Positions 46,060 to 58,129 of a stretch of 64,000 nt of DNA are shown piece by piece (positions within the stretch are counted from its first letter, which is position 1; every line of letters starts with the position of its first letter). This stretch comes from Flavobacteriales bacterium. Its GTDB lineage: Bacteria > Bacteroidota > Bacteroidia > Flavobacteriales_F > PHOS-HE28. Made by a program: the position numbers and the translations under genes. The notes beneath the pieces were generated by a model that made no database searches, was not told the DNA's origin, and saw only the letters and a list, made by a program, of their open reading frames with translations. Location of the stretch: the NCBI GenBank assembly GCA_020852835.1, contig JADZAC010000038.1, positions 1 through 64,000 on the forward strand, in the 5' to 3' direction.

Positions 46060-46542
46060 CTAGGAGAGCAAGCTCTGGCGTAGTGCAAACTCCAGCTGCC
46101 GGTTCGATTCGAGCAGCTTTTCCGTAAACGCCTTACGTTCCATTTCCGCTTGGTGCCGGGCCCATGCCTGGGCTACGGCACGGCGCACATCATCCACCTC
46201 CCAAGGTTTCTGGATATAGTGGCACACGCCACCTTCATTCAGGGCATCAACAAGCGCCTGCAGGTCTGCATGGGCGGTTATCAACATGCGGTGAACCTGT
46301 GGATAACGCTCCCGGATCCGGCGCAAGGCCTCACTGCCGGCCACTCCGGGCATGCGCTGGTCGCAGATCACCACATGCACCCGGGCAACTTCGAGCACTT
46401 TCCAGGCTTCGTTCAGATCGGCGGCCAACACTACGTTGAAATCCTTGCGGAACGTGGCCTTGAACGTGATGCGGTTCTCCTCTTCATCATCGATGTAGAG
46501 CACGGTGGGCACCGTTGGGCAGTGTTGCGGCATGGCGATCAT
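46060..46542 (-). CDS. single-domain response regulator
   Basis: This protein of about 160 residues has a complete receiver domain: acidic pair in VLYIDDEEEN, phosphoacceptor Asp in VVICDQRMPG, Thr/Ser switch in MLITAHAD, and Lys in IQKPWE. A C-terminal coiled helix (ARHQAEMERKAFTEKLLESNRQL) follows; no DNA-binding domain is present. The receiver is closely related to the one in the REC-PAS-kinase at 51959, suggesting a paralog. The start is uncertain between ATG 46542 and ATG 46533; the long frame to 46629 lacks likeness. Confidence 0.85.
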   Translation of the reverse strand: MIAMPQHCPTVPTVLYIDDEEENRITFKATFRKDFNVVLAADLNEAWKVLEVARVHVVICDQRMPGVAGSEALRRIRERYPQVHRMLITAHADLQALVDALNEGGVCHYIQKPWEVDDVRRAVAQAWARHQAEMERKAFTEKLLESNRQLEFALRQSLLS

Positions 46543-46670
46543 CGGAGGGAGGTTGTTCGGGGCGCTGTACGCAGCCCGCGCAAAAAGGTTATGAACAAAT
46601 CCTCCGTCCGTTGTTAATAACTTATTCAAGGTTACATTCGGCGCCGAACCGTGTTTCGCTCACTTTCGCA

Positions 46671-48989
46671 ATGATGGCCTTGGATCCCGTCCTGCATCGG
46701 TTATTGGCAAGGGAACAACCTGTTGCTCAGGCATACCGCCCAAGTTTCTTCAAGTTGCCCGCAGATCAGCAGGCGCTGCGCCAGCTGTTGGAACAGGAGC
46801 CCGCGATACACGTGCACGATCGCATGCACGCCCAGTTGCAGGAGTTGCTGAAATCACTCCATCCCAGCGTAAAATTCACTTCTGAAGAACTTGAACTCGC
46901 GATTGCTGACCACCTGAGCGGCAAAACGATGACGGAATATGGCCAGTGGGTGTTTTACCCTTGGTCGAAAACACTGGTGCACCTGTTGGAAGCCGAAGAA
47001 TTTGCACAGGTGCGCACCGATCGCAACCGGAACAAGATCACCCGCGAGGAGCAGTTGGTGTTGGCCGGAAAGAAGATCGGCGTAATCGGATTGTCGGTGG
47101 GCCAGTCCGTTAGCCTCACCATGGCCTTGGAGCGTTGCTTCGGCGAGATCCGTTTGGCCGACTTTGACACCTTGGACCTGAGCAACCTGAACCGCATCCG
47201 CACCGGGGTGGCCAACTTGGGCGTCAACAAGGCCGTAGTGACCGCGCGGGAAATTGCCGAGATCGATCCCTATCTGAACGTGGTCTGCTTCACGGACGGC
47301 CTGACCCGGGCAAACTTGGACGACTACTTCACCAGTGGTGGCAAGTTGGACATCCTGGTGGAAGAATGCGACAGTGTGGACATCAAGATCCTAGCCCGCC
47401 AAAAGGCCAAGGAGCTGGGCATACCCGTGGTGATGGACATGAGCGACCGCGGCTGCTTGGACGTGGAGCGTTTCGACCTAGAGCCGGAGCGGCCCATCCT
47501 GCATGGCTGGATCGACCATTTGGACTTGGAGGCGGCCAAGCGGCCCATGAGCGCTGAAGAAAAGGTGCCTTACATGCTGCCCATCACCGGGGTGGAAACG
47601 CTGAGCCCGCGGATGAAAGCCTCGGTGATCGAACTGGGGCAAACCATCAGCACATGGCCGCAATTGGCCACTTCGGTGGTGCTCGGCGGCGCCTTGGCCG
47701 GTGATGCGGTGCGGCGGATCGCCTTGGACCAGTTCCGAAGCTCGGGCCGTTGGCATGTGGACCTTGAGCAACAGATAGCCGATATACCGGAGGTGGTACC
47801 ACCTGTCCCCCTGCCTGGTGATCATTCCGCTCTCGGGCTATTGCCGGATGTGCTGGAGCCGTTGTTGGGGGCCGTCCCCGGGGAAGCCTTGGCCTTGGAT
47901 GCCCCAGCCATGAACGCCTTGGAGCAAGCGGCAACCTTGGCTCCGAGCGAAGGCAACCTGCGGCCATGGAAGTTGCATTGGCACGGTCGGCGGTTGCTGC
48001 TCCTGCACGACAGTGAGCGGTCGCGCAGCGTGTGGGACCCGGACCATCGCCTGGCGCAACTGGCCTTGGGCGCCTGTTTGGAGAACATTGTGCTCAAAGC
48101 ACATGAACTCGGACTGGAAGCAATTCCGGGCCCGGAGGTTCTTGAGCTGCCGCAGCTTGCGGCCAGCCTGGTCTTTGCTGCATCCGGCACGCCAGGGGGC
48201 GCAGCGGGCGACTGGGACCATTTGGCCGATGCCATTGCCCAGCACCACACCTATCGGGGGCCTGGCACCAAACAGGAGTTGCCCGTTGCGGACAGGCAAC
48301 GGCTCGAACATGCCGCAGGCTCGTTTCATGCCCGCGTGCATTGGCTGGAGGGGGAGCAACACATGCAGCTTCTTGCCGGCCTGCTGGCCCAAACGGAGCG
48401 CATCCGCATGATGCATCCCGAGGGGCACCGGGAATTCTTCACGCAATGGCTGAGTTGGAATGATCCGGATCATGTTGCGGAAAACAGCGGGGTGCCGCTC
48501 CGCGATCTGGCCTTGCCCCCCATGGCCGAAGCGGCCTTGAAGGTGATGGCAGACCCCAAGGCCATGGACCTGTTGCGGCAGTGGGATGGCGGCAAAACCA
48601 TCGGCATGCTGCCCATCCTGCACCTGGGCTCCTCCTCGGCCGTCGCCTTGATCACCCTTGCCCCCGGTGTTGAACAGCCCGGCAGTTTGGCCGCAGGCAG
48701 GGCCGTGCAGCGGCTATGGCTCAGTGCCCGGCAGTTGGGCTGGGGGGTTCAACCCATTGTATCGCCGATCTTGCTGCCGGTTGCCGTGGCGGCGTCGCCC
48801 GGCCGGTTCAGCAGGCAAGTGCATGAAACCGCAGCCTTGGTGCAGACGGGCCTCCAGGATCTTTTCGGAACCGGCCCAGGTACCCCGCTGTGCCTGCTGC
48901 GGATCAGCAAACCCGTGGGCCGCGCCGCGCACGCGCAACCTGCGATCAGACAACTTCTTCAGCAACCCGCCCAAACCTTGCATGCATGA
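46671..48989 (+). CDS. ThiF/E1-like and nitroreductase-like fusion (Rv1355c family)
   Basis: This 772-residue protein joins two enzyme folds. The N-terminal half has the E1/ThiF nucleotide-binding region (GVIGLSVGQSV, about 137-147) and FDTLDLSNLNR (about 165-175), which activates a carboxylate by adenylation in known homologs. The C-terminal half (about 400-740) resembles an FMN-binding nitroreductase-like fold. Such fusions are named Rv1355c family. No CxxC zinc pair was seen. It is coupled to a GNAT-like gene by an ATGA overlap, and together they may make a modified small molecule. The ATG at 46671 is preceded by CACTTTCG. Confidence 0.8.
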   Translation: MMALDPVLHRLLAREQPVAQAYRPSFFKLPADQQALRQLLEQEPAIHVHDRMHAQLQELLKSLHPSVKFTSEELELAIADHLSGKTMTEYGQWVFYPWSKTLVHLLEAEEFAQVRTDRNRNKITREEQLVLAGKKIGVIGLSVGQSVSLTMALERCFGEIRLADFDTLDLSNLNRIRTGVANLGVNKAVVTAREIAEIDPYLNVVCFTDGLTRANLDDYFTSGGKLDILVEECDSVDIKILARQKAKELGIPVVMDMSDRGCLDVERFDLEPERPILHGWIDHLDLEAAKRPMSAEEKVPYMLPITGVETLSPRMKASVIELGQTISTWPQLATSVVLGGALAGDAVRRIALDQFRSSGRWHVDLEQQIADIPEVVPPVPLPGDHSALGLLPDVLEPLLGAVPGEALALDAPAMNALEQAATLAPSEGNLRPWKLHWHGRRLLLLHDSERSRSVWDPDHRLAQLALGACLENIVLKAHELGLEAIPGPEVLELPQLAASLVFAASGTPGGAAGDWDHLADAIAQHHTYRGPGTKQELPVADRQRLEHAAGSFHARVHWLEGEQHMQLLAGLLAQTERIRMMHPEGHREFFTQWLSWNDPDHVAENSGVPLRDLALPPMAEAALKVMADPKAMDLLRQWDGGKTIGMLPILHLGSSSAVALITLAPGVEQPGSLAAGRAVQRLWLSARQLGWGVQPIVSPILLPVAVAASPGRFSRQVHETAALVQTGLQDLFGTGPGTPLCLLRISKPVGRAAHAQPAIRQLLQQPAQTLHA

Positions 48990-49777
48990 AGGCAATCTAC
49001 CCAACCCCGCAGCCGGAAGGAAAATTGGACCGCATTACGCTCAGGGCTTTTCGGGCCCCCGATGATCCGGGCCTTTGCCAAGAGTTCATCGAGGAACACC
49101 AAAAGGTGCTTACGGACATCGGCGTGAACCAACTGATAGCCCGGGATCATGCATGGGTGAACGACCCGAATTGCTGCGTGATCGTGGCGCGCCATGCCGA
49201 ACATGGCATGGTCGGGGGCATTCGCCTGCAACTTGCGGAACCCGGTGTGAATTTGCCCATGGTGGATTCCATTGAGAAGAGCGACCCCCGCGTGCACCTG
49301 GCCATGGAGGAGCTGCTGCCCTGGGGCAATGGCGAGGTATGCGGCCTGTGGGCAGCGCACCGCTATTTGGGGAAAGGCGTGCCCGGGCTGCTCAGCAAGG
49401 CGGTCACCACCATTTCGGTAGCAGCTGGTGCCGGCCGCATGGTGTGCTTTGTGGCACACTACACGCAGAAATACCCTGCAAAGAACGGATTCATTGTGCT
49501 GGACAGCGTTGGCGAGAACGGATTCTTCCCTTCCTATCCCATTCCGCGCATCACCACCATTGCCATGGTGAACCCGGACACGCGCCTGCTGGAGCATGCC
49601 AGCCTGGAGCACCGGCTGTCCATCTACAGCCTGCGGCTCCGGCCGGAGCAAACACGCATCGAGACCTTCGGTGATACCTCCTTGGAGGTGAAGTACGAAC
49701 TGTGCATCAATGCCCAGGTGAAGGACCTGCACGCCTACCGGCAGATCGAGGAACAATGGCGGGCCGCATGTGCCTGA
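48986..49777 (+). CDS. GNAT-like acyltransferase
   Basis: This 263-residue protein shows an acyltransferase fold like GNAT enzymes, with conserved stretches such as AHRYLGKGVPGLLSKAV and GRMVCFVAHYTQKYPAKNGF. Its length and layout recall N-acyl amino acid or homoserine-lactone synthases. The substrate is unknown. It overlaps the ThiF-nitroreductase gene by four bases and is followed after 39 bases by a sensor kinase, so the three genes may form one unit. Confidence 0.6.
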   Translation: MKAIYPTPQPEGKLDRITLRAFRAPDDPGLCQEFIEEHQKVLTDIGVNQLIARDHAWVNDPNCCVIVARHAEHGMVGGIRLQLAEPGVNLPMVDSIEKSDPRVHLAMEELLPWGNGEVCGLWAAHRYLGKGVPGLLSKAVTTISVAAGAGRMVCFVAHYTQKYPAKNGFIVLDSVGENGFFPSYPIPRITTIAMVNPDTRLLEHASLEHRLSIYSLRLRPEQTRIETFGDTSLEVKYELCINAQVKDLHAYRQIEEQWRAACA

Positions 49778-49816
49778 TACCGCAACCCGGGGCCTTGGCA
49801 TACGTATAACGCGGCC

Positions 49817-51952
49817 GTGGCACGCTTCCTCCTCCTCCTCGCGCTATTGATTCCCGCCTGGGCATCCGGCTCTTCGGACCGGCAGCACTGGGTTGTTTTC
49901 GGCAAGGACCCATCGGCCCGGCCGGTAGGAACCAAACTGGAACTGTTCAGTGACCCTACGGCCGCCTTGGGCATGCAGGAGGTGGCCGCCAGTGGCGGCT
50001 TCAAGACCAGCCAAGAACTGGTGCCCAACTTGGGGGTGAGCAGTGCGGCCCAGTGGGCCATGTTCACCGTGTTGAACGTGAATGTGGACGAAGTTCCCTA
50101 TGTATTGGTGGATTACCCGGAGATCGAGGAGTTGGACCTGTACCTGGTGGACCCGCAAGGCATTCGCCACTTGATCTCCGCCGGTCAGGCCAGGCCTTTT
50201 TCAGATGGCGCTCAAAGCTCGCCTTCCTTCAGCACCCGGCTTGACATTCCTTTCGGCGGAACGGCCCAGGTGTTTATACGGGCCAAAGGCGATAAGCAGC
50301 TGCAGTTGCCCGTCTATGTGATCTCCAGATCCGAGGAATCCACCATTGCCATGAACAGGAGCCTGTTCATCGGCGGGTACATCGGCCTGATGCTGGTGAT
50401 GATCTTGTACAATTTGTTCGTGTTCACCTCCACCAAGGATTCCAGCTACATCTACTATGTGGTGGCACTGATCTTTTCACTCTTCACCCAGTTGTCCTTC
50501 ACCGGATATTTGGGCTACTACCTGTTCAGCGATGTTCCCTGGATCAAGCAACACGCCTCGCTGATCCTCACAGCCTTCACCGCGGTCAGTTCCAATTTGT
50601 TCATGGACCGGTTCATCCACGCCCGCAAACATGTACGCCATTTCACGCGGGTCTTGTACACCTTCTTTGCGTTGATGGGCGTGGGCGTGTTGCTGGACCT
50701 GGTGGGCATGCGGGTGCAAGCCTATGGCCTGATGCAGCTCCTGTCCATGGCCTTGGCCTTGTACACCTTGGCCGTGGCGATCATCAGCTACAGGCAGGGG
50801 GAGCGCTCTGCCAAATTCTTTTTGATCGCTTGGTGCATATTCCTCACCGGCATCGTGGTATTTGTGGCCAAGGACTGGGGTTTGGTGCCCTACAACGACT
50901 TCACCAAGTACATGATGACCATCGGCTCATCCGTGGAAGTGGTACTGCTGTCGCTGGGTTTGGCTGACCGGATCAATGTGCTGCGCAGGGAGAAGGACCG
51001 CTCGCAAGCCGAGGCGTTGCGCACGGCGCAGGAAAAAGCCACCTTGATCCGGGAGCAGAATGCCGTGCTGGAGATGAAGGTGGCCGAGCGCACCCACGCG
51101 CTTCAGGAAAGCAACGACCACCTTAAGCAAACCCAGAGCCAGCTGGTGAGCGCGGAGAAGATGGCCTCTCTGGGCCAGCTTACCGCCGGTATCGCCCACG
51201 AGATCAACAACCCGATCAACTACATCAGCAGCAGCATACCTCCGTTGAAGCGCGACCTGGGCGAACTGAAAGAGGTGCTGGAGGCCTATCGGGAAGCATC
51301 AAAAGGGCAAGCGGCCTTGGCTCCCGTGCACGCCTTGGAGCAGCGGATCGGCGTGGAGGATACGGTGCGGGAAGTGGAGGAGATCCTGCTGGCCCTGGAG
51401 CATGGTGCCGCCCGCACCTCGGAGATCGTTCGCGGCCTGCGCACCTTCAGCCGCCTGGATGAAGATGACCTGAAGGAAGCCGACATCAACGAGTGCCTGC
51501 GCAGCACGGTCGTTGTGCTCGGTCCGCAGTTCCGCGATGGCGTCCGCGTGGTATATGACCTGCAGGACTTGCCCCAAGTGGAATGCTACCCGGGCAAGCT
51601 GAACCAGTTGTTCATGAACCTGCTGAACAATGCGGCGCACGCCGTAAAAAAGAGGCACGGATCCACTGGCGGTGAGGTACGCATCGCCACCCGCCTGCAC
51701 AACGGTGCCGTGCAGGTGGCCGTGGGCGATAACGGCACGGGCATGGATGACCAGGTGATGTCCCACCTTTTTGAACCCTTTTACACTACCAAGGAAGTGG
51801 GTGAAGGCACGGGCCTGGGGCTGTCCATTGCCAAAGGCATCATTGACAAGCATCATGGCCAGGTGGAAGTTCATAGCGAACTTGGCACCGGCACCACCTT
51901 TACCATCAACCTGCCCTTGGCCCAACCCCGGCAGCTGGCCAAAAGTGCCTGA
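49817..51952 (+). CDS. 7TM-DISM sensor histidine kinase
   Basis: This 711-residue protein starts with GTG and a signal peptide (VARFLLLLALLIPAWASG). A periplasmic 7TMR-DISM extracellular domain and seven membrane helices follow (about 185-390). Then come a coiled-coil linker and a kinase with H box GIAHEINNPINYISSS, N box MNLLNNAAHAV, G1 DNGTGM and G2 GTGLGLSIAKG. It likely senses a periplasmic ligand and phosphorylates a receiver. No ATG fits the signal peptide, so GTG is the real start. Its closest receivers are in the next gene and at 46060. Confidence 0.9.
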   Translation: MARFLLLLALLIPAWASGSSDRQHWVVFGKDPSARPVGTKLELFSDPTAALGMQEVAASGGFKTSQELVPNLGVSSAAQWAMFTVLNVNVDEVPYVLVDYPEIEELDLYLVDPQGIRHLISAGQARPFSDGAQSSPSFSTRLDIPFGGTAQVFIRAKGDKQLQLPVYVISRSEESTIAMNRSLFIGGYIGLMLVMILYNLFVFTSTKDSSYIYYVVALIFSLFTQLSFTGYLGYYLFSDVPWIKQHASLILTAFTAVSSNLFMDRFIHARKHVRHFTRVLYTFFALMGVGVLLDLVGMRVQAYGLMQLLSMALALYTLAVAIISYRQGERSAKFFLIAWCIFLTGIVVFVAKDWGLVPYNDFTKYMMTIGSSVEVVLLSLGLADRINVLRREKDRSQAEALRTAQEKATLIREQNAVLEMKVAERTHALQESNDHLKQTQSQLVSAEKMASLGQLTAGIAHEINNPINYISSSIPPLKRDLGELKEVLEAYREASKGQAALAPVHALEQRIGVEDTVREVEEILLALEHGAARTSEIVRGLRTFSRLDEDDLKEADINECLRSTVVVLGPQFRDGVRVVYDLQDLPQVECYPGKLNQLFMNLLNNAAHAVKKRHGSTGGEVRIATRLHNGAVQVAVGDNGTGMDDQVMSHLFEPFYTTKEVGEGTGLGLSIAKGIIDKHHGQVEVHSELGTGTTFTINLPLAQPRQLAKSA

Positions 51953-51958
51953 ACCCCC

Positions 51959-53485
51959 ATGGACCGACCCGCCGAGAAGATCAACGTGCTCTATGTGGAC
52001 GACGAGGAAGGCAACTTGTTGGCCTTTCGCGCCAGTTTCCGCCGTGATTTCGACGTGCATGTCTGCACCAGTGGAGCAGACGCTCTGGCTTGGCTGGAAC
52101 AGCACACGGCCCATGTGGTGATCAGTGACCAGCGCATGCCGGGCATGACCGGCGCGGAATTCCTGGCTGCTGTGCGCCATCGGTGGCCCAACAGCGTGCG
52201 GCTGCTGCTGACGGGCTATTCAGACATCAAGGCCGTGGTGGAAGCCATCAACCTCGGCGGCATCCATGCCTACATCACCAAGCCTTGGGACCCCACGGAC
52301 CTCAAGTTGCGGATCGAACAAGCCTACGAGGTGCACTTCCTGCGGGCCCAGCGCGACCGGTTGTTTGAGCGGTACCGCCAAGTATTTGATGCCTCGGGCG
52401 ATCCCATTGCCATTCTGGACGACAAGGGCGTGTTCCGCGAACTGAACCCTGCCGCGGAACAACTGTTCCAACTGGAACACGTCCCTTCAGGTTCCGTGCC
52501 GTACAGCGACTTTATCGTGGACCTGCCCGCCGTGCTGCGCCGGTTCCTGGCCAAGCGCCAAGGAACCACCTTCAAGAACGTGGACCTGACCTTGGCGATC
52601 CCCGGGGGAGCAATGGTGGATTGTTTGGTGACCGTCTCCTTCATTGGCCGGGACAATGACGGCACCCGCCTGTACCAGGCCATGATCAAGGACATCACCG
52701 ACCGCAAGCAGGAGGAGGACCAATTGCGCCGGCTGAACAGGGATTTGGACCGCAGGGTGGCCGTGCGCACCAAACAATTGATGGAGGCACTGGACGATCT
52801 GGGGGCTTTTTCCTATTCCGTTGCGCATGATCTCCGTTCCCCATTGAAAAACATCAAGGTGATGAGCGACCACCTGGGGAACTTGGCGGGGATGCGCGGG
52901 GATGAAGAGGAACGGGACCTGAGCGAACGGATCCACAAGGGAGCCGCCCGCCTGCTGAACCTGGTGGATGACCTGCTCCGTTTTTCGCGCACCGATGCAA
53001 AACAGGCGGAACTGGCACCGCTCGATGCAGCGGAGCTGATGCAGGAATGCATCCGGGAGATCTGCGTGCCCGTGGACCATGTCCGCTTTATCCTGCCCGA
53101 ACACGGCATGGCCATGATCCACGCCGATCGGGCCATGGTAAAGGTGGCGCTGAACAACCTGCTGGCCAACGCGGTGAAGTTCACCCGGATGAAGGCGGAG
53201 GCCATCATTGAACTGGGCCATGCCCACGGGGAGGATGGTGACCTGCTCTGGGTGAAGGACAACGGGGTAGGTTTCGACAGCCAGAAAAAGGACCAGGTAT
53301 TCGGCGTGTTCAAGCGGCTGCATTCTGCCACCCAGTTCGAGGGCACCGGCATCGGGCTGGCATTGGTGGACCGGATCATGAAGAAGCACCAGGGCAGTTG
53401 CTGGGCCGAAGGGGCGCAAGACCAGGGTGCCACCATTTACTTGCGGTTCCCGGCCGGGGGATCGGCCATGCGCCAAGCGGGCTGA
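51959..53485 (+). CDS. REC-PAS-histidine kinase hybrid
   Basis: This 508-residue cytoplasmic protein has an N-terminal receiver (YVDDEEGN, phosphoacceptor VVISDQRMPG, KPWD), a PAS domain (FDASGDPIAILDDKGVFRELNPAAEQLFQLE), a HisKA H box (SYSVAHDLRSPLKNIK) and an HATPase domain (NNLLANAVKFTRM, DNGVGFD, GTGIGLALVDRIM). It may relay phosphate from the 7TM-DISM kinase, from which it is separated by six bases. Its receiver is very similar to the orphan receiver at 46060. Confidence 0.9.
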   Translation: MDRPAEKINVLYVDDEEGNLLAFRASFRRDFDVHVCTSGADALAWLEQHTAHVVISDQRMPGMTGAEFLAAVRHRWPNSVRLLLTGYSDIKAVVEAINLGGIHAYITKPWDPTDLKLRIEQAYEVHFLRAQRDRLFERYRQVFDASGDPIAILDDKGVFRELNPAAEQLFQLEHVPSGSVPYSDFIVDLPAVLRRFLAKRQGTTFKNVDLTLAIPGGAMVDCLVTVSFIGRDNDGTRLYQAMIKDITDRKQEEDQLRRLNRDLDRRVAVRTKQLMEALDDLGAFSYSVAHDLRSPLKNIKVMSDHLGNLAGMRGDEEERDLSERIHKGAARLLNLVDDLLRFSRTDAKQAELAPLDAAELMQECIREICVPVDHVRFILPEHGMAMIHADRAMVKVALNNLLANAVKFTRMKAEAIIELGHAHGEDGDLLWVKDNGVGFDSQKKDQVFGVFKRLHSATQFEGTGIGLALVDRIMKKHQGSCWAEGAQDQGATIYLRFPAGGSAMRQAG

Positions 53486-53548
53486 TCGTAACCTGCACAG
53501 CCTTGGTGTGCGTATGAGGTGCATGGGCATACATGCCTGATAAGCACC

Positions 53549-54070
53549 ATGAACCTCAAAGCCATTTCCATTTTCGCGGCACTTTCCTATCTACCCCTCT
53601 TGGTCCATGCCCAAAAGTTGGTGGACAGCCGGGACCAGGCCACCGGATGGTATGTACCGGTGAAAGTGATGGTGACCGCGCAAGGCAGCCCGGCAGAGCA
53701 GGTGGATGTGCAGGTGTACAAGGAGAACACCTTGATCCATGAGATCCCGGGCTCCAAGCACAAGTTCACCGTGAACATGGACCTGGAGAACACCTACACG
53801 CTGGTGCTGCGCAAGGAAGGCTACCGCACCAAGTCGGTCATGATCAACACCCACGTGCCCAACGACCAAGTGGAATACCCGGAGTACGCCTGCAACCTGG
53901 ACATGGAACCGGAAGAATGGTTCGCCCATGCCGACCCATTTTACCTGGATTTTCCGGGTGCGGTGGTGCACTGGGATGACAAGACGGAATCCTTTATGCC
54001 GCAGATGAACTACTTGGCCGACATACAATCCAAGGTGGCCATGTTGCGCGCGCAAATGGATACGCATTGA
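53549..54070 (+). CDS. secreted protein, unknown
   Basis: This 173-residue protein has a signal peptide (MNLKAISIFAALSYLPLLVHAQ) and a carboxypeptidase-regulatory-like beta-sandwich (QVDVQVYKENTLIHEIPGSKHKFTVNMDLENTYTLVLRKEGYRTK), as seen in many surface proteins of Bacteroidota. No catalytic residues are evident. It is followed by two hairpins, the second a good terminator. The ATG at 53549 was chosen for the signal peptide. Confidence 0.65.
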   Translation: MNLKAISIFAALSYLPLLVHAQKLVDSRDQATGWYVPVKVMVTAQGSPAEQVDVQVYKENTLIHEIPGSKHKFTVNMDLENTYTLVLRKEGYRTKSVMINTHVPNDQVEYPEYACNLDMEPEEWFAHADPFYLDFPGAVVHWDDKTESFMPQMNYLADIQSKVAMLRAQMDTH

Positions 54071-54160: not shown

Positions 54161-55276
54161 TCAGTGCTGGTCGTAGTCCACCACCACACGGGCGGTCAGC
54201 GGGTGGCTTTGGCAGGTGAGCACATAACCGTCCGCCACTTCTTCATCGGTGAGGGCGTAGTTCATGTCCATGGAGACCTTGCCTTCCACAATGCGGGCTT
54301 TGCACGTGCAGCATACTGCTCCTTTGCACGCGTAGGGCACGTCGAGCCCGGCTTTTTCGGCGGTATCCAATATGCTGTCGCCTTTGCCGGGCACTTCGAT
54401 CTCGGTTTCCCGGCCGTCCAGGATGACCTTCACCCGGGCCTTGCCGGTAAAAGGCGCATCGGTGCTTGCCGGTGCTCCAGTGTCGGTATCCTGTTTGAAC
54501 TCAGTTGTTACCGGTGTGGTGAACAGTTCAATGTGCACCCGTTTTTTATCCACCCCCAGCTTGTCCAGTGATTCGCTCACATTCACCATCATCGGCTCGG
54601 GGCCGCAAATGAAGTACTCCGTATCGGCATTGTCCTGCACAAAGCGGCGGGTCAATGCCGTGGCCTTTTCCACGGTGATCAGGCCGTTGAACAGGACGTC
54701 CTCATCCATGCCGAAAGTGAGGATGTGGTGCACATGGATGCGCTCGCCGTACTTGGCCTTGATCTCTTCCAACTTGGAGCGGAAGATGATCCGGTTCTCA
54801 TCGGTATTGCCGTAGAACAGGGTAAGCCTGCTTTGAGGTTCCGATCGAAGCACCGTTTTAATGATGCTGAGTATGGGCGTGATGCCGCTACCACCGGCAA
54901 AGCAGACGTAGTGCTTGCGGTTGGCCGCATCCAACAACGTGTAGAAACTGCCCATGGGTGTCATCACCTCCAACTGCATGCCCGCCTGCAGCTTGCCCAC
55001 CAGTTCGCCGGAGGCCCGGCCCCCTTCCACGCGCTTTACGGCAATGCGCACCTCCCCGGGATCCAACGGGCTGCTGCAAATGCTGTAGCTGCGCCGTAGC
55101 TCCTGCCCGCCGACCTTCACCTTGAGCGTGAGGTATTGGCCTTGGATGAAGCTGTAATCGGCCCGGAGCTCCGGCGGGATGTTGAAGCCGATCACTATGC
55201 TGTCCTCTGTTTCTCGGTGCACACTGGTTACAACAAGCGTATGGAATCGGGCCATGCGTGGTGGGGTAATGGACAT
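54161..55276 (-). CDS. paaE: phenylacetyl-CoA epoxidase reductase subunit
   Basis: This 371-residue protein has a ferredoxin-NADP reductase-type FAD domain (QELRRSYSICSSP), an NAD-binding domain (YVCFAGGSGITPILSIIK; FICGPEPMM), and a C-terminal plant-type 2Fe-2S domain (ACKGAVCCTCKARIVEG plus Cys near the end). It passes electrons from NADPH to the PaaAC oxygenase. It is divergent from paaABCD, unlike operons with all subunits in one strand. The ATG at 55276 gives a normal family start; TACTTTTG (55324-55317) is the likely -7 box. Confidence 0.9.
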   Translation of the reverse strand: MSITPPRMARFHTLVVTSVHRETEDSIVIGFNIPPELRADYSFIQGQYLTLKVKVGGQELRRSYSICSSPLDPGEVRIAVKRVEGGRASGELVGKLQAGMQLEVMTPMGSFYTLLDAANRKHYVCFAGGSGITPILSIIKTVLRSEPQSRLTLFYGNTDENRIIFRSKLEEIKAKYGERIHVHHILTFGMDEDVLFNGLITVEKATALTRRFVQDNADTEYFICGPEPMMVNVSESLDKLGVDKKRVHIELFTTPVTTEFKQDTDTGAPASTDAPFTGKARVKVILDGRETEIEVPGKGDSILDTAEKAGLDVPYACKGAVCCTCKARIVEGKVSMDMNYALTDEEVADGYVLTCQSHPLTARVVVDYDQH

Positions 55277-55316
55277 GATCGAACGGTTGCGCCGCATGGG
55301 GGCCGGCGGCGGTCGG

Positions 55317-55324
55317 CAAAAGTA
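55317..55324 (-). promoter_or_regulatory. -7 promoter element of paaE
   Basis: TACTTTTG on the minus strand matches TAnnTTTG exactly, 40 bases before the chosen ATG. Confidence 0.55.
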
Positions 55325-55409
55325 GGCTGTGCCGCCATCACTGGTGCGTTCGGCCGGTTCGGTGGCACATCACTACCTTAGCCACCTTCAACCCGATACT
55401 CGAAACCAG

Positions 55410-56348
55410 ATGCCCGAAAGCCAACAAGCAGCGCAGTTCCAGGCAAAAGTGGATGCTGAGCAGAAGATCGAGCCGCGCGATTGGATGCCTGCGGAATACC
55501 GGCAGAACCTGGTGCGGCAGATCAGCCAGCACGCCCACAGCGAGATCGTGGGCATGTTGCCCGAAGGCAACTGGATCGGCCGGGCACCCAGCCTGCGGCG
55601 CAAAGCCATCCTGCTGGCCAAGGTGCAGGATGAGGCCGGCCATGGCCTCTACTTGTACAGCGCGGCGGAAACCTTGGGCGTGGGGCGCGATGAAATGGTC
55701 TCCCAGCTGCTCAGCGGCAAAGCCAAATACAGCAGCATCTTCAACTACCCCACCCTCACTTGGGCCGATATCGGCGCCATCGGCTGGTTGGTGGACGGGG
55801 CCGCCATCATGAACCAGGTGATGCTCTGCCGCACGAGCTACGGCCCGTATGCACGCGCCATGGTACGCATCTGCAAGGAGGAAAGCTTCCATCAGCGGCA
55901 GGGCTACGACATCCTGGTGACCCTGAGCAAGGGCACCCCGGAGCAGAAAGCCATGGCACAGGATGCCTTAAACCGCTGGTGGTGGCCCAGCCTGATGATG
56001 TTCGGGCCCAGCGACAAGGACAGCCCGCACAGTGCCCAAAGCATGAAATGGAAGATCAAGCGCCAGAGCAACGACGAACTGCGCCAAACCTTCATCGACC
56101 GTACCGTGCCACAGGCTGAATTCATCGGCCTGCAAGTGCCCGACCCGAAGTTGAAGTGGAACGAGACCATCCAGCACTACGACTGGGGCGAGATCGATTG
56201 GGAGGAGTTCAACCAGGTGATCCGCGGCAACGGGCCATGCAACGCCGAGCGCATGGCAGCCCGGCGGAAAGCCCACGCCGATGGGGCGTGGGTGCGGGAG
56301 GCGGCGTTGGCCCATGCAGGGAAGAAAGCGAAGCGGAGCGCAGCTTAG
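55410..56348 (+). CDS. paaA: 1,2-phenylacetyl-CoA epoxidase subunit A
   Basis: This 312-residue ferritin-like diiron protein matches PaaA over its length, with ligand motifs [16 protein letters not shown] and [13 protein letters not shown] (E..DExxH..E..ExxxH pattern). With PaaC it epoxidises the ring of phenylacetyl-CoA. It is the first gene of paaABCD. The ATG at 55410 gives the right length; TACCTTAG lies upstream. A catabolic pathway for phenylacetate is inferred, but paaF, paaG, paaZ and paaK are not in the window. Confidence 0.94.
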
Positions 56349-56429
56349 TGCATAGTTCAAAGGGCGTAGAGCGTAGTTGTCAGTTGTCAGAAAAAGAAGA
56401 ACAAGCACATTTGGAACCACCAGAAAACC

Positions 56430-56726
56430 ATGAGCACCACCAACGAAAAAGATTGGCCCCTGTGGGAGATCTTCATCCAAAGCAAGCGCGGCCTGGACCA
56501 CAAGCATGTGGGCAGCCTGCATGCCGCCGATGCCCGGATGGCCATTGAGAACGCCCGTGACGTGTATACCCGCCGGGGCGAGGGCAACAGCATATGGGCG
56601 GTGCAAGCGGCGGACATCCACGCCAGCAAGCCGGAAGATCAAGGGGCTTTCTTCGACCCCGCCGACGACAAGGTGTACCGCCATCCCACCTTCTACCCCA
56701 TGCCCGAAGGCGTGAAGTACATGTGA
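56430..56726 (+). CDS. paaB: phenylacetyl-CoA epoxidase subunit B
   Basis: This 98-residue protein matches PaaB: WPLWEIFIQSKRGLDHKHVGSLHAADARMA, and a closing DPADDKVYRHPTFYP. PaaB is a small bridging subunit needed for the PaaABCE complex. It lies between paaA and paaC with a 3-base gap to the latter. A short TTGTCAGTTGTCAG repeat lies in the gap after paaA. Confidence 0.93.
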   Translation: MSTTNEKDWPLWEIFIQSKRGLDHKHVGSLHAADARMAIENARDVYTRRGEGNSIWAVQAADIHASKPEDQGAFFDPADDKVYRHPTFYPMPEGVKYM

Positions 56727-56728
56727 GC

Positions 56729-57505
56729 ATGAACCAGCAAGAAGCATTGTTCCGCTTCGCCCTGCGCATGGGCGACAACAGCGTGGTGCTGGGCCACCGC
56801 ACCAGTGAATGGTGCGGGCATGGCCCCGTGCTGGAGGAAGACATCGCCCTGGCCAATATCGCGCTGGACCTCATTGGCCAAGCCCGCAACTACCTCACGT
56901 ATGCCGGTGAAGTGGAAGCGAAGTTCCGTGCTTCGGCTCCGCTCAGGACGGAAGATGATCTGGCCTATTTGCGCGGCGAACGTGAATACCTCAACGTACA
57001 CTTGGTGGAGCTGCCCAAGGGCGACTATGCCCACACCATCGTGCGCAGCTTCCTTTTCGATGCCTTTCACCTGCCATTGCAACAGGCGCTCACTACCAGC
57101 AAAGACGACCGATTGAAGGGAATTGCCGAAAAAGCCGTGAAGGAAGTGGCCTACCACCTGCGCCACAGCAGCGAATGGCTGGTGCGCTTCGGGGATGGTA
57201 CGCAGGAGAGCCACCAGCGCGCGCAAAACGCGTTGGAGGACCTCTGGCGCTACACCGGTGAACTGTTCGCCGCGGATGAAGCCGAGGAGTTGCTGGCCAA
57301 GGCGGGCATCGCACCCAAGCTGGCCGATGTGAAGCAGGAATGGAGTGCCACCGTGGACCGCGTGCTGAAGGAAGCCACCCTGAAGCGCCCTGCGGACGGC
57401 TGGATGGCCAGCGGCGGAAAGAAGGGCATCCACACCGAGCACCTTGGCCCCATGCTGGCCGAGATGCAAACGTTGCAGCGGAGTTATCCCGGAGTGGAGT
57501 GGTAA
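56729..57505 (+). CDS. paaC: phenylacetyl-CoA epoxidase subunit C
   Basis: This 258-residue protein matches PaaC, the structural partner of PaaA: NQQEALFRFALRMGDNSVVLGHRTSEWCGHGPVLEEDIALANIALDLIGQARNYL. It starts three bases after paaB. As usual for PaaC, the diiron ligand set is degenerate, and the subunit stabilises PaaA. Confidence 0.92.
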   Translation: MNQQEALFRFALRMGDNSVVLGHRTSEWCGHGPVLEEDIALANIALDLIGQARNYLTYAGEVEAKFRASAPLRTEDDLAYLRGEREYLNVHLVELPKGDYAHTIVRSFLFDAFHLPLQQALTTSKDDRLKGIAEKAVKEVAYHLRHSSEWLVRFGDGTQESHQRAQNALEDLWRYTGELFAADEAEELLAKAGIAPKLADVKQEWSATVDRVLKEATLKRPADGWMASGGKKGIHTEHLGPMLAEMQTLQRSYPGVEW

Positions 57506-57523
57506 TTTGGTGCCGCGGGATTC

Positions 57524-57587
57524 GTTGTTAGTTGTCAGTTGTTAGTTGTTAGTAGCTGAGGATCCCGAGCAACTGACAACGAACAAC
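57524..57587. repeat. REP-like hairpin between paaC and paaD
   Basis: GTTGTTAGTTGTCAGTTGTT (57524-57543) pairs with AGCAACTGACAACGAACAAC (57568-57587) with two mismatches. A related inverted repeat lies at 58687-58742, and TTGTCAGTTGTCAG lies near 56370. Confidence 0.75.
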
Positions 57588-57610
57588 CGACAACACTGGA
57601 CCAAGGAACC

Positions 57611-58129
57611 ATGAAGGCATCCGCTCCATCAGAGCATTCCGTGGGCAGCGTTAACGCAGCGGAGATCGAGCGTCTGCTGGAGTCCGTGAAAGACCCGGAG
57701 ATCCCGGTGATCAGCATCCGGGAACTCGGGGTACTGCGCGACGTGAAGGTGGAGAACGGCGCGGTGGAAGTGACCATCACGCCCACGTACAGCGGTTGCC
57801 CGGCCATGGACTTCATGCACCTGGAAGTGGAGAAAACGTTGAAGCAGGCTGGCATCAGCAATTTCAGGGTGAAGCAAGTGCTCTCCCCGGCCTGGACCAC
57901 GGATTGGATCAGCGAAAGCGGGAGGAAAAAGCTGCTTGAATTCGGCATTGCCCCGCCGCCGCACTCGGCGGACATCCGGGCATTGAAGGGCCGATCACCC
58001 GCCGTGGCCTGCCCGCTCTGCGGCAGCACGGACACTGAGTTGCTCAGCCAGTTCGGCTCCACGGCCTGCAAAGCGCTCTACCGCTGCAAGGCGTGCAAGG
58101 AGCCGTTCGACCTGTTCAAGTGCCATTGA
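57611..58129 (+). CDS. paaD: phenylacetate-CoA oxygenase assembly protein PaaD
   Basis: This 172-residue protein combines a MIP18/DUF59-type domain (VKDPEIPVISIRELGVLRDV; ITPTYSGCPAMDF) with a C-terminal zinc-ribbon (CPLCGSTDTELLSQFGSTACKALYRCKAC). PaaD is needed for activity of the PaaABCE epoxidase, probably in iron-centre maturation. It lies about 105 bases after paaC with a REP-like hairpin between. AAGGA precedes the ATG as a possible ribosome-binding site. Confidence 0.92.
   Translation: MKASAPSEHSVGSVNAAEIERLLESVKDPEIPVISIRELGVLRDVKVENGAVEVTITPTYSGCPAMDFMHLEVEKTLKQAGISNFRVKQVLSPAWTTDWISESGRKKLLEFGIAPPPHSADIRALKGRSPAVACPLCGSTDTELLSQFGSTACKALYRCKACKEPFDLFKCH

Follow-up and report, generated by a model that had tools for sequence, protein, structure and literature searches.

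An oxazolone-type enzyme pair linked to a membrane sensor kinase and receivers in Bacteroidia: a candidate autoinducer circuit

What is made, and what is sensed, at a locus where an E1-like adenylating enzyme fused to a nitroreductase and an acyltransferase-like protein are encoded next to a receiver and two sensor kinases? The question is raised by positions 46060-53485 of the window (i.e. the whole stretch of 64,000 nucleotides that was analysed), which belongs to the 3.4 Mb genome of a Flavobacteriales-like member of the Bacteroidota. All five genes that an earlier, sequence-only reading had listed were recovered in the same order with Pfam, NCBIfam and a structure model of the acyltransferase-like protein. 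Gene A encodes a lone receiver of 160 aa on the minus strand (46060-46542, with a likely ATG at 46542 and the stop at 46060; PF00072, 1.8e-21) and is divergent from the other four genes, from which it is separated by 128 bp. On the plus strand lie B (46671-48989), a ThiF-nitroreductase fusion (PF00899, 1.2e-16, then PF00881, 3e-8); C (48986-49777), a GNAT-fold N-acyltransferase according to its AlphaFold model; D (49817-51952), a 7TMR-DISM sensor histidine kinase (7TMR-DISMED2, PF07696; 7TMR-DISM_7TM, PF07695; HisKA and HATPase); and E (51959-53485), a REC-PAS-histidine kinase (PF00072, PAS, HisKA and HATPase). The stop of B and the start of C share an ATGA, a 4-bp overlap that makes translational coupling of the two plausible, and with gaps of only 39 bp between C and D and 6 bp between D and E, B-C-D-E looks like one operon.

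B scored 690.8 bits against the NCBIfam model NF005901 ('Rv1355c family'; cut-off 476) and combines PF00899 with PF00881, the latter a nitroreductase-fold flavin oxidase (FDO), as a member of the family of the TrzS oxazolone synthetases. Rv1355c is TrzS itself: TrzA acylates tryptophan, after which TrzS uses ATP for cyclisation and O2 for desaturation, the two together yielding N-acyl tryptazolones (PMC12856293), and TyzACB and OxzAB arrive at tyrazolones through like steps (PMC10404671). Mutation of D217, R540 and Q651 impairs the activity of TrzS (PMC12856293), and all three residues are kept in B, as D234, R577 and Q694. They were assigned by motif and spacing via a Mycolicibacterium homologue, which is supported by the agreement between the motif spacing in that homologue (323 and 113 residues) and that in the published TrzS numbering (323 and 111). 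An E1-like enzyme could also act on a protein or carrier, i.e. in ubiquitin-like conjugation, in thiamine or molybdopterin synthesis, or in anti-phage defence, and B does contain a ThiF/E1 domain with a weak likeness to E1-E2 defence models. These models, however, gave at most 24.8 bits, far below the Rv1355c/TrzS score; moreover, the block holds no E2, JAB or ubiquitin-like partner for B, and the partner that is present (C) is an acyltransferase with the AHL-synthase fold, so that we consider such a role very improbable. Anti-phage defence and ubiquitin-like conjugation were rejected, PADLOC having returned only weak generic E1 and REC/kinase matches.

For C neither Pfam nor NCBIfam gave a match, which leaves it outside the LuxI-type autoinducer-synthase sequence family, and there was no convincing match among PDB sequences or plasmids. 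Because the sequence searches gave no family, its fold is known only from the AlphaFold model (pLDDT 82, pTM 0.83), which has the GNAT/AHL-synthase fold and in that respect bears out the earlier description of C as acyltransferase-like. With this model Foldseek placed the (CoA-dependent) AHL synthases MesI, BjaI and RpaI first, with the N-acyl amino acid synthase FeeM following at rank 10, and VIA-align gave a Z of 15.7 over 175 residues for C and FeeM, a value equal to that of ordinary GNATs. TyzA is in turn closest to FeeM and BjaI (PMC10404671). A profile of C detected the gene in the position of TrzA on a Rhodococcus plasmid only barely, at 11 bits. As modelled, C is a predicted N-acyl amino acid synthase (TrzA/FeeM-like), and would then be the amino acid N-acyltransferase gene that adjoins an oxazolone synthetase. 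Judged by homology, acyl oxazolone synthesis by B and C is likely. The enzymes are of a known kind, that of the published oxazolone pathways OxzAB, TyzACB and TrzAS (PMC12856293, PMC10404671), and the earlier suggestion of an undescribed unit could therefore not be upheld for the enzyme pair, whereas it does stand for the linkage to kinases. A Streptomyces plasmid (L180, 5179-8093) carries an apparent GNAT-like N-terminal region, assigned by eye, directly before a ThiF cyclase domain, without FDO; such a fusion would support a shared pathway for both enzymes. The fusion gene overlaps a beta-ketoacyl-ACP synthase 3 gene and looks like another variant of the pathway.

How closely the enzymes are tied to the kinases was examined in an even draw of 295 Bacteroidia genomes. 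A homologue of C was present in 55 (roughly a fifth), spread over 21 families with 11 genomes from the window's own genus, and in 53 of these a D-type kinase adjoins C on the same strand, within 1.4 kb. Of the two loci without D, one is a contig end (G625) and the other has a weak, remote match to C (G599). The reverse situation, kinases conserved at this place without the enzymes, had been named as evidence against a joint unit; it was looked for and not found, since with a profile of the D sensor (built from linked kinases, and so biased toward linked matches) the 52 highest-scoring D-type sensors in these genomes were all C-linked, unlinked 7TM-DISM kinases starting at 296.5 bits. The forward count of 53 is independent of that profile and is thus unaffected by its bias. 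A REC-histidine kinase was found at 45 and a lone REC at 47 of the 55 C loci, several of the misses being contig ends. The other observation named beforehand as contrary, an enzyme pair that occurs widely without kinases, was made outside the Bacteroidota, where plasmid loci of Actinomycetota have the pair without these kinases, but not inside the Bacteroidia. One large Bacteroidia genome (G599, locus L177) has ThiF and a remote homologue of the N-acyltransferase (NAT) with no kinases nearby; it is the one clear exception among the sampled genomes of the class. A MAG contig labelled Blastocatellia (L093, 2829-5153) has a homologue of B but neither C nor kinases, for which mis-binning or horizontal transfer is possible. 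In a phylum-wide draw, ThiF of the B type was present in only 11 of 395 genomes, a prevalence that depends on sampling.

A separate scan of 80 named loci showed the same block in most of them, with carriers in Pedobacter, Mucilaginibacter, Daejeonella, Parapedobacter, Arachidicoccus, Chitinophagaceae and Cytophagales. Beyond the window's genus the flanks differ and the gene order varies (in Mucilaginibacter, Arcticibacter and others NAT precedes ThiF, and the lone REC sits at the opposite end), and the set nevertheless remains together; about 20 families of the class retain the block. Among members of the genus itself the entire chromosomal neighbourhood is shared, so that adjacency by chance, or by conserved chromosomal order alone, might be suspected from these genomes. 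However, the block is kept among flanks that are all different outside the genus, and a genome of the same genus lacks exactly the block; given its retention in about 20 families, chance is excluded for practical purposes.

In that genome (G011, 95% complete) the genes paaA-paaE-F-M1 peptidase-EFG are ordered as they are in the window, but A-E, and only A-E, are absent, and no D was found elsewhere in it. The empty site sets the boundaries of the unit at A-E, and shows that enzymes and kinases are gained or lost together. Gene F (53519-54070), which had been considered as a sixth member, remains at the empty site and was rejected; it was not found at sampled loci outside the window's genus. 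Absence of the block in two other genomes (G001 and G003) was only apparent and due to contig breaks. Further downstream, the window contains phenylacetyl-CoA epoxidase genes (54161-58129, with a PaaE-like gene at 54161-55297, a PaaA-like gene at about 55407-56348 and more paa-like ORFs), and in almost every same-genus locus that is long enough to show them, paa genes come after the block.

The signalling proteins of the block appear equipped for phosphotransfer. The phospho-His of D is kept in 123 of 123 homologues, the phospho-acceptor Asp of A in 100 of 101 and the REC Asp of E in 118 of 118; the His of E is present in 109 of 118, and the homologues lacking it are probably HisKA_3-type variants such as L156. 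With DISMED2, 7TM and HisKA/HATPase domains D qualifies as a 7TMR-DISM kinase, and the model of its sensor matches the periplasmic domain of RetS. RetS-like domains resemble carbohydrate-binding folds, and D could thus sense a glycan. In most other genera the E-type gene encodes a REC-HK without PAS. Neither A nor the receiver of E has a DNA-binding domain, and among its paralogues in the same genome A is closest to the REC of E (111.7 bits, versus 43.4 for the next). A ends in a conserved C-terminal tail, QLEFALRQSLLS, of which the near-invariant form is QLEFxLRQxLLS; in one family A is degenerate and Pfam does not recognise it as a receiver any more (L142, 10412-10903, and a matching ORF in L176), and since the degenerate L142 receiver keeps LRHSLLS, the tail may be a working part. 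Those proteobacterial plasmid relatives of A that were examined lie in other contexts. At L156 (4237-6604) the gene after a HisKA_3-type REC-PAS-kinase encodes a NarL-type receiver that carries a GerE DNA-binding domain, through which this variant could plausibly act on transcription. An extra receiver of ~130 aa directly after E, without a match to the profile of A, occurs at many non-genus loci (L066 16131-16568, L073 9382-9780, L107 16197-16592 and similar).

Which of these proteins change together was assessed with partial Mantel correlations of distances over 75 loci. The sensor domain of D tracks C (0.15) and ThiF (0.21) and not its own kinase domain (0.05), although these sensor-side correlations are small (0.15-0.21) and the pairs non-independent; nor does it track A or the REC of E. 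The kinase domain of D, on the other hand, tracks A (0.50) and E-REC (0.51). The direction of this co-variation fits a partnership of ligand with sensor on one side and of kinase with receiver on the other. C tracks A (partial r 0.42) above any other part, for which the signalling model gives no explanation.

The reading that we prefer, with a probability of roughly 0.55, is that the block forms a self-contained autoinducer circuit, in which a carboxylate-capped N-acyl amino acid (here an oxazolone) is made and subsequently sensed by D. In this circuit, for which we infer substrate, product, export, the identity of the ligand, the direction of phosphotransfer and the output genes, B would activate the carboxylate with ATP, close the ring to the oxazolone and desaturate it with FMN and O2. 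The N-acyl oxazolone would then leave the cell and bind to the RetS-like periplasmic/7TM sensor of D, which would transfer phosphate to A and to the receiver of E, and these would act as relays. From the linkage, it is somewhat more likely than not that the acyl oxazolone is what D senses. Counted against the circuit are the enzyme pairs without kinases in Actinomycetota and at the L177 locus of G599 (where the match to C is weak). Furthermore, tryptazolones are found mainly in the cell pellet of their actinobacterial hosts (PMC12856293), which makes a secreted signal awkward.

In the main alternative, D would sense an environmental or envelope cue (e.g. a glycan or stress), upon which the kinases and receivers would switch on the production of an acyl-oxazolone that serves as an antimicrobial, membrane or redox compound and is not the ligand of D. 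This would agree with the likeness of the periplasmic domain of D to RetS and to carbohydrate-binding modules, and with the induction of proteobacterial oxazolones by antibiotics, for which a role in stress has been proposed (PMC12856293). It would also agree with the conserved element in the promoter of the enzyme operon. This promoter-like element, TTGTTAATAA-N12-TACATTCG (i.e. TTGTTNATAA then TAnnTTYG; 46611-46640, plus strand), reads into B and has one match in the window, where 0 are expected, and in 29 same-genus loci, with 497 kb of sequence, every match is located immediately upstream of B. Its spacing resembles that of the Bacteroidota promoter consensus. Operons of other genera did not show the element in their upstream region; being confined to the genus, it is uninformative on the wider family. 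Control of the pathway need not tie gain and loss of the kinase to that of the enzymes, yet the linkage between NAT and D is near-universal both ways, and the sensor domain of D co-varies more closely with the enzymes than with the kinase domain to which it is joined. We therefore regard an environmental cue as less probable than the preferred circuit, though as its strongest competitor.

The enzyme beside NAT proved to be the variable part of the block. Of the 55 loci, 28 have ThiF-FDO in this place, 18 have ThiF without FDO and 6 have a methyltransferase, and either ThiF, a methyltransferase or (at a contig end) an FDO gene accompanies NAT in 53. The methyltransferases, which occur in L054, L145, L154, L156, L172 and L175 only, belong to three unrelated families, i.e. 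class I SAM (L145 type), O-methyltransferase PF00891 (L156) and ICMT (L172), the last being a carboxyl methyltransferase. In trees built for C and for the D sensor the capping states switch many times, with at least 12 changes of FDO forced by starred branches of the C tree, while NAT and kinase remain constant. Since the free carboxylate of an N-acyl amino acid is the target of a cyclase and of a carboxyl methyltransferase alike, the two may be alternatives for the same step, namely the capping of that carboxylate.

This variability could also mean that the uncapped N-acyl amino acid is the signal and that ThiF/FDO or the methyltransferase tunes its stability or inactivates it: NAT is constant, the tailoring step varies or is absent (L170), and oxazolones are easily hydrolysed and alcoholysed (PMC12856293). 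Against this, a capping or FDO gene is almost always found beside NAT, as counted above, and the sensor of D tracks ThiF as well as C, which makes an uncapped signal improbable. With respect to the preferred circuit, the earlier idea that an acylated molecule is made here and sensed by the adjacent kinases has gained strong genomic support, from the near-perfect reciprocal linkage, the gain and loss as a unit and the swapping of tailoring enzymes beside constant kinases, with sensing itself as its predicted half. A wider reading, to which we give slightly less than even odds, is that the Bacteroidia harbour a modular family of autoinducers with a NAT core, interchangeable carboxylate caps (an oxazolone with or without desaturation, or a methyl ester) and, to read the product, a RetS-like 7TM kinase plus a Phc-like relay; oxazolones would then be quorum signals.

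Of the known systems, TrzAS of Mycobacterium and Rhodococcus (Rv1356c-Rv1355c) resembles the block in having a ThiF cyclase-FMN oxidase fusion beside a GNAT-type acyltransferase (PMC12856293). TrzS and B share their NCBIfam family and conserved catalytic residues, although B is only 35-36% identical to its actinobacterial homologues. In contrast to the block, no sensor kinases have been reported for trzAS, whose neighbours are cyclic di-GMP genes; from these the authors considered possible signalling, with kinases not mentioned (PMC12856293). On a Rhodococcus plasmid (L181, 3859-8007) a GGDEF gene overlaps the neighbour of an Rv1355c-family gene, which is reminiscent of the cyclic di-GMP genes reported nearby in M. 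tuberculosis. OxzAB of Pseudoalteromonas rubra and TyzACB of M. tuberculosis, which make tyrazolones, have acyltransferase, cyclase and desaturase as the block does, but the papers covered do not describe a receiver/kinase set beside these genes. Clusters for stieleriacine, thalassotalic acid and kyonggic acid have ThiF and nitroreductase genes together with that of an N-acyl amino acid synthase, and some include a methyltransferase as well; kinases are not mentioned for them, and the producers are from other phyla (PMC12479983).

The signalling half of the block has its own parallels. LuxI and FeeM are acyltransferases and LuxM/LuxN and CqsA/CqsS are synthase-kinase pairs; the block shares with these the placing of a (predicted) acyl-transfer signal synthase beside a membrane histidine kinase. 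C has no Pfam autoinducer-synthase match, however, and the predicted product is an oxazolone instead of a homoserine lactone or ketone. In layout the block is similar to PhcB-PhcS-PhcR-PhcQ of Ralstonia, which comprises a synthase, a sensor kinase, a protein with receiver and histidine kinase, and a lone receiver (PMC8578825). Both lone receivers (that of Phc and A) lack a DNA-binding domain, and several Bacteroidia variants of the block use methyltransferases, as Phc does. However, PhcB is a methyltransferase that produces a fatty-acid methyl ester and there is no NAT, whereas the window has ThiF-FDO and NAT and no PhcB-like synthase; D has a RetS-like 7TM-DISM sensor, unlike the Phc kinase, and the block contains no PhcA-like regulator. 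Literature searches, with most subscription journals outside their scope, gave no description of such a circuit, whether under oxazolones and kinases, under N-acyl amino acid signalling or under 7TMR-DISM quorum sensing in Bacteroidetes. The new part is the linkage between enzymes and kinases, for which priority is not proven, and the block represents a predicted case of synthase-sensor-kinase signalling with a new predicted chemistry in a new host group.

The physiological role of acyl oxazolones has been called a major unresolved question by their mycobacterial discoverers (PMC12856293). In the Bacteroidia, enzymes of the oxazolone type almost always share an operon with a membrane sensor kinase and relays, including in cultured Pedobacter and Mucilaginibacter, which makes this role directly testable. 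If the product is indeed the ligand, it would constitute a new chemical class of two-component-sensed signal, in a phylum for which the literature covered here describes no such circuit.
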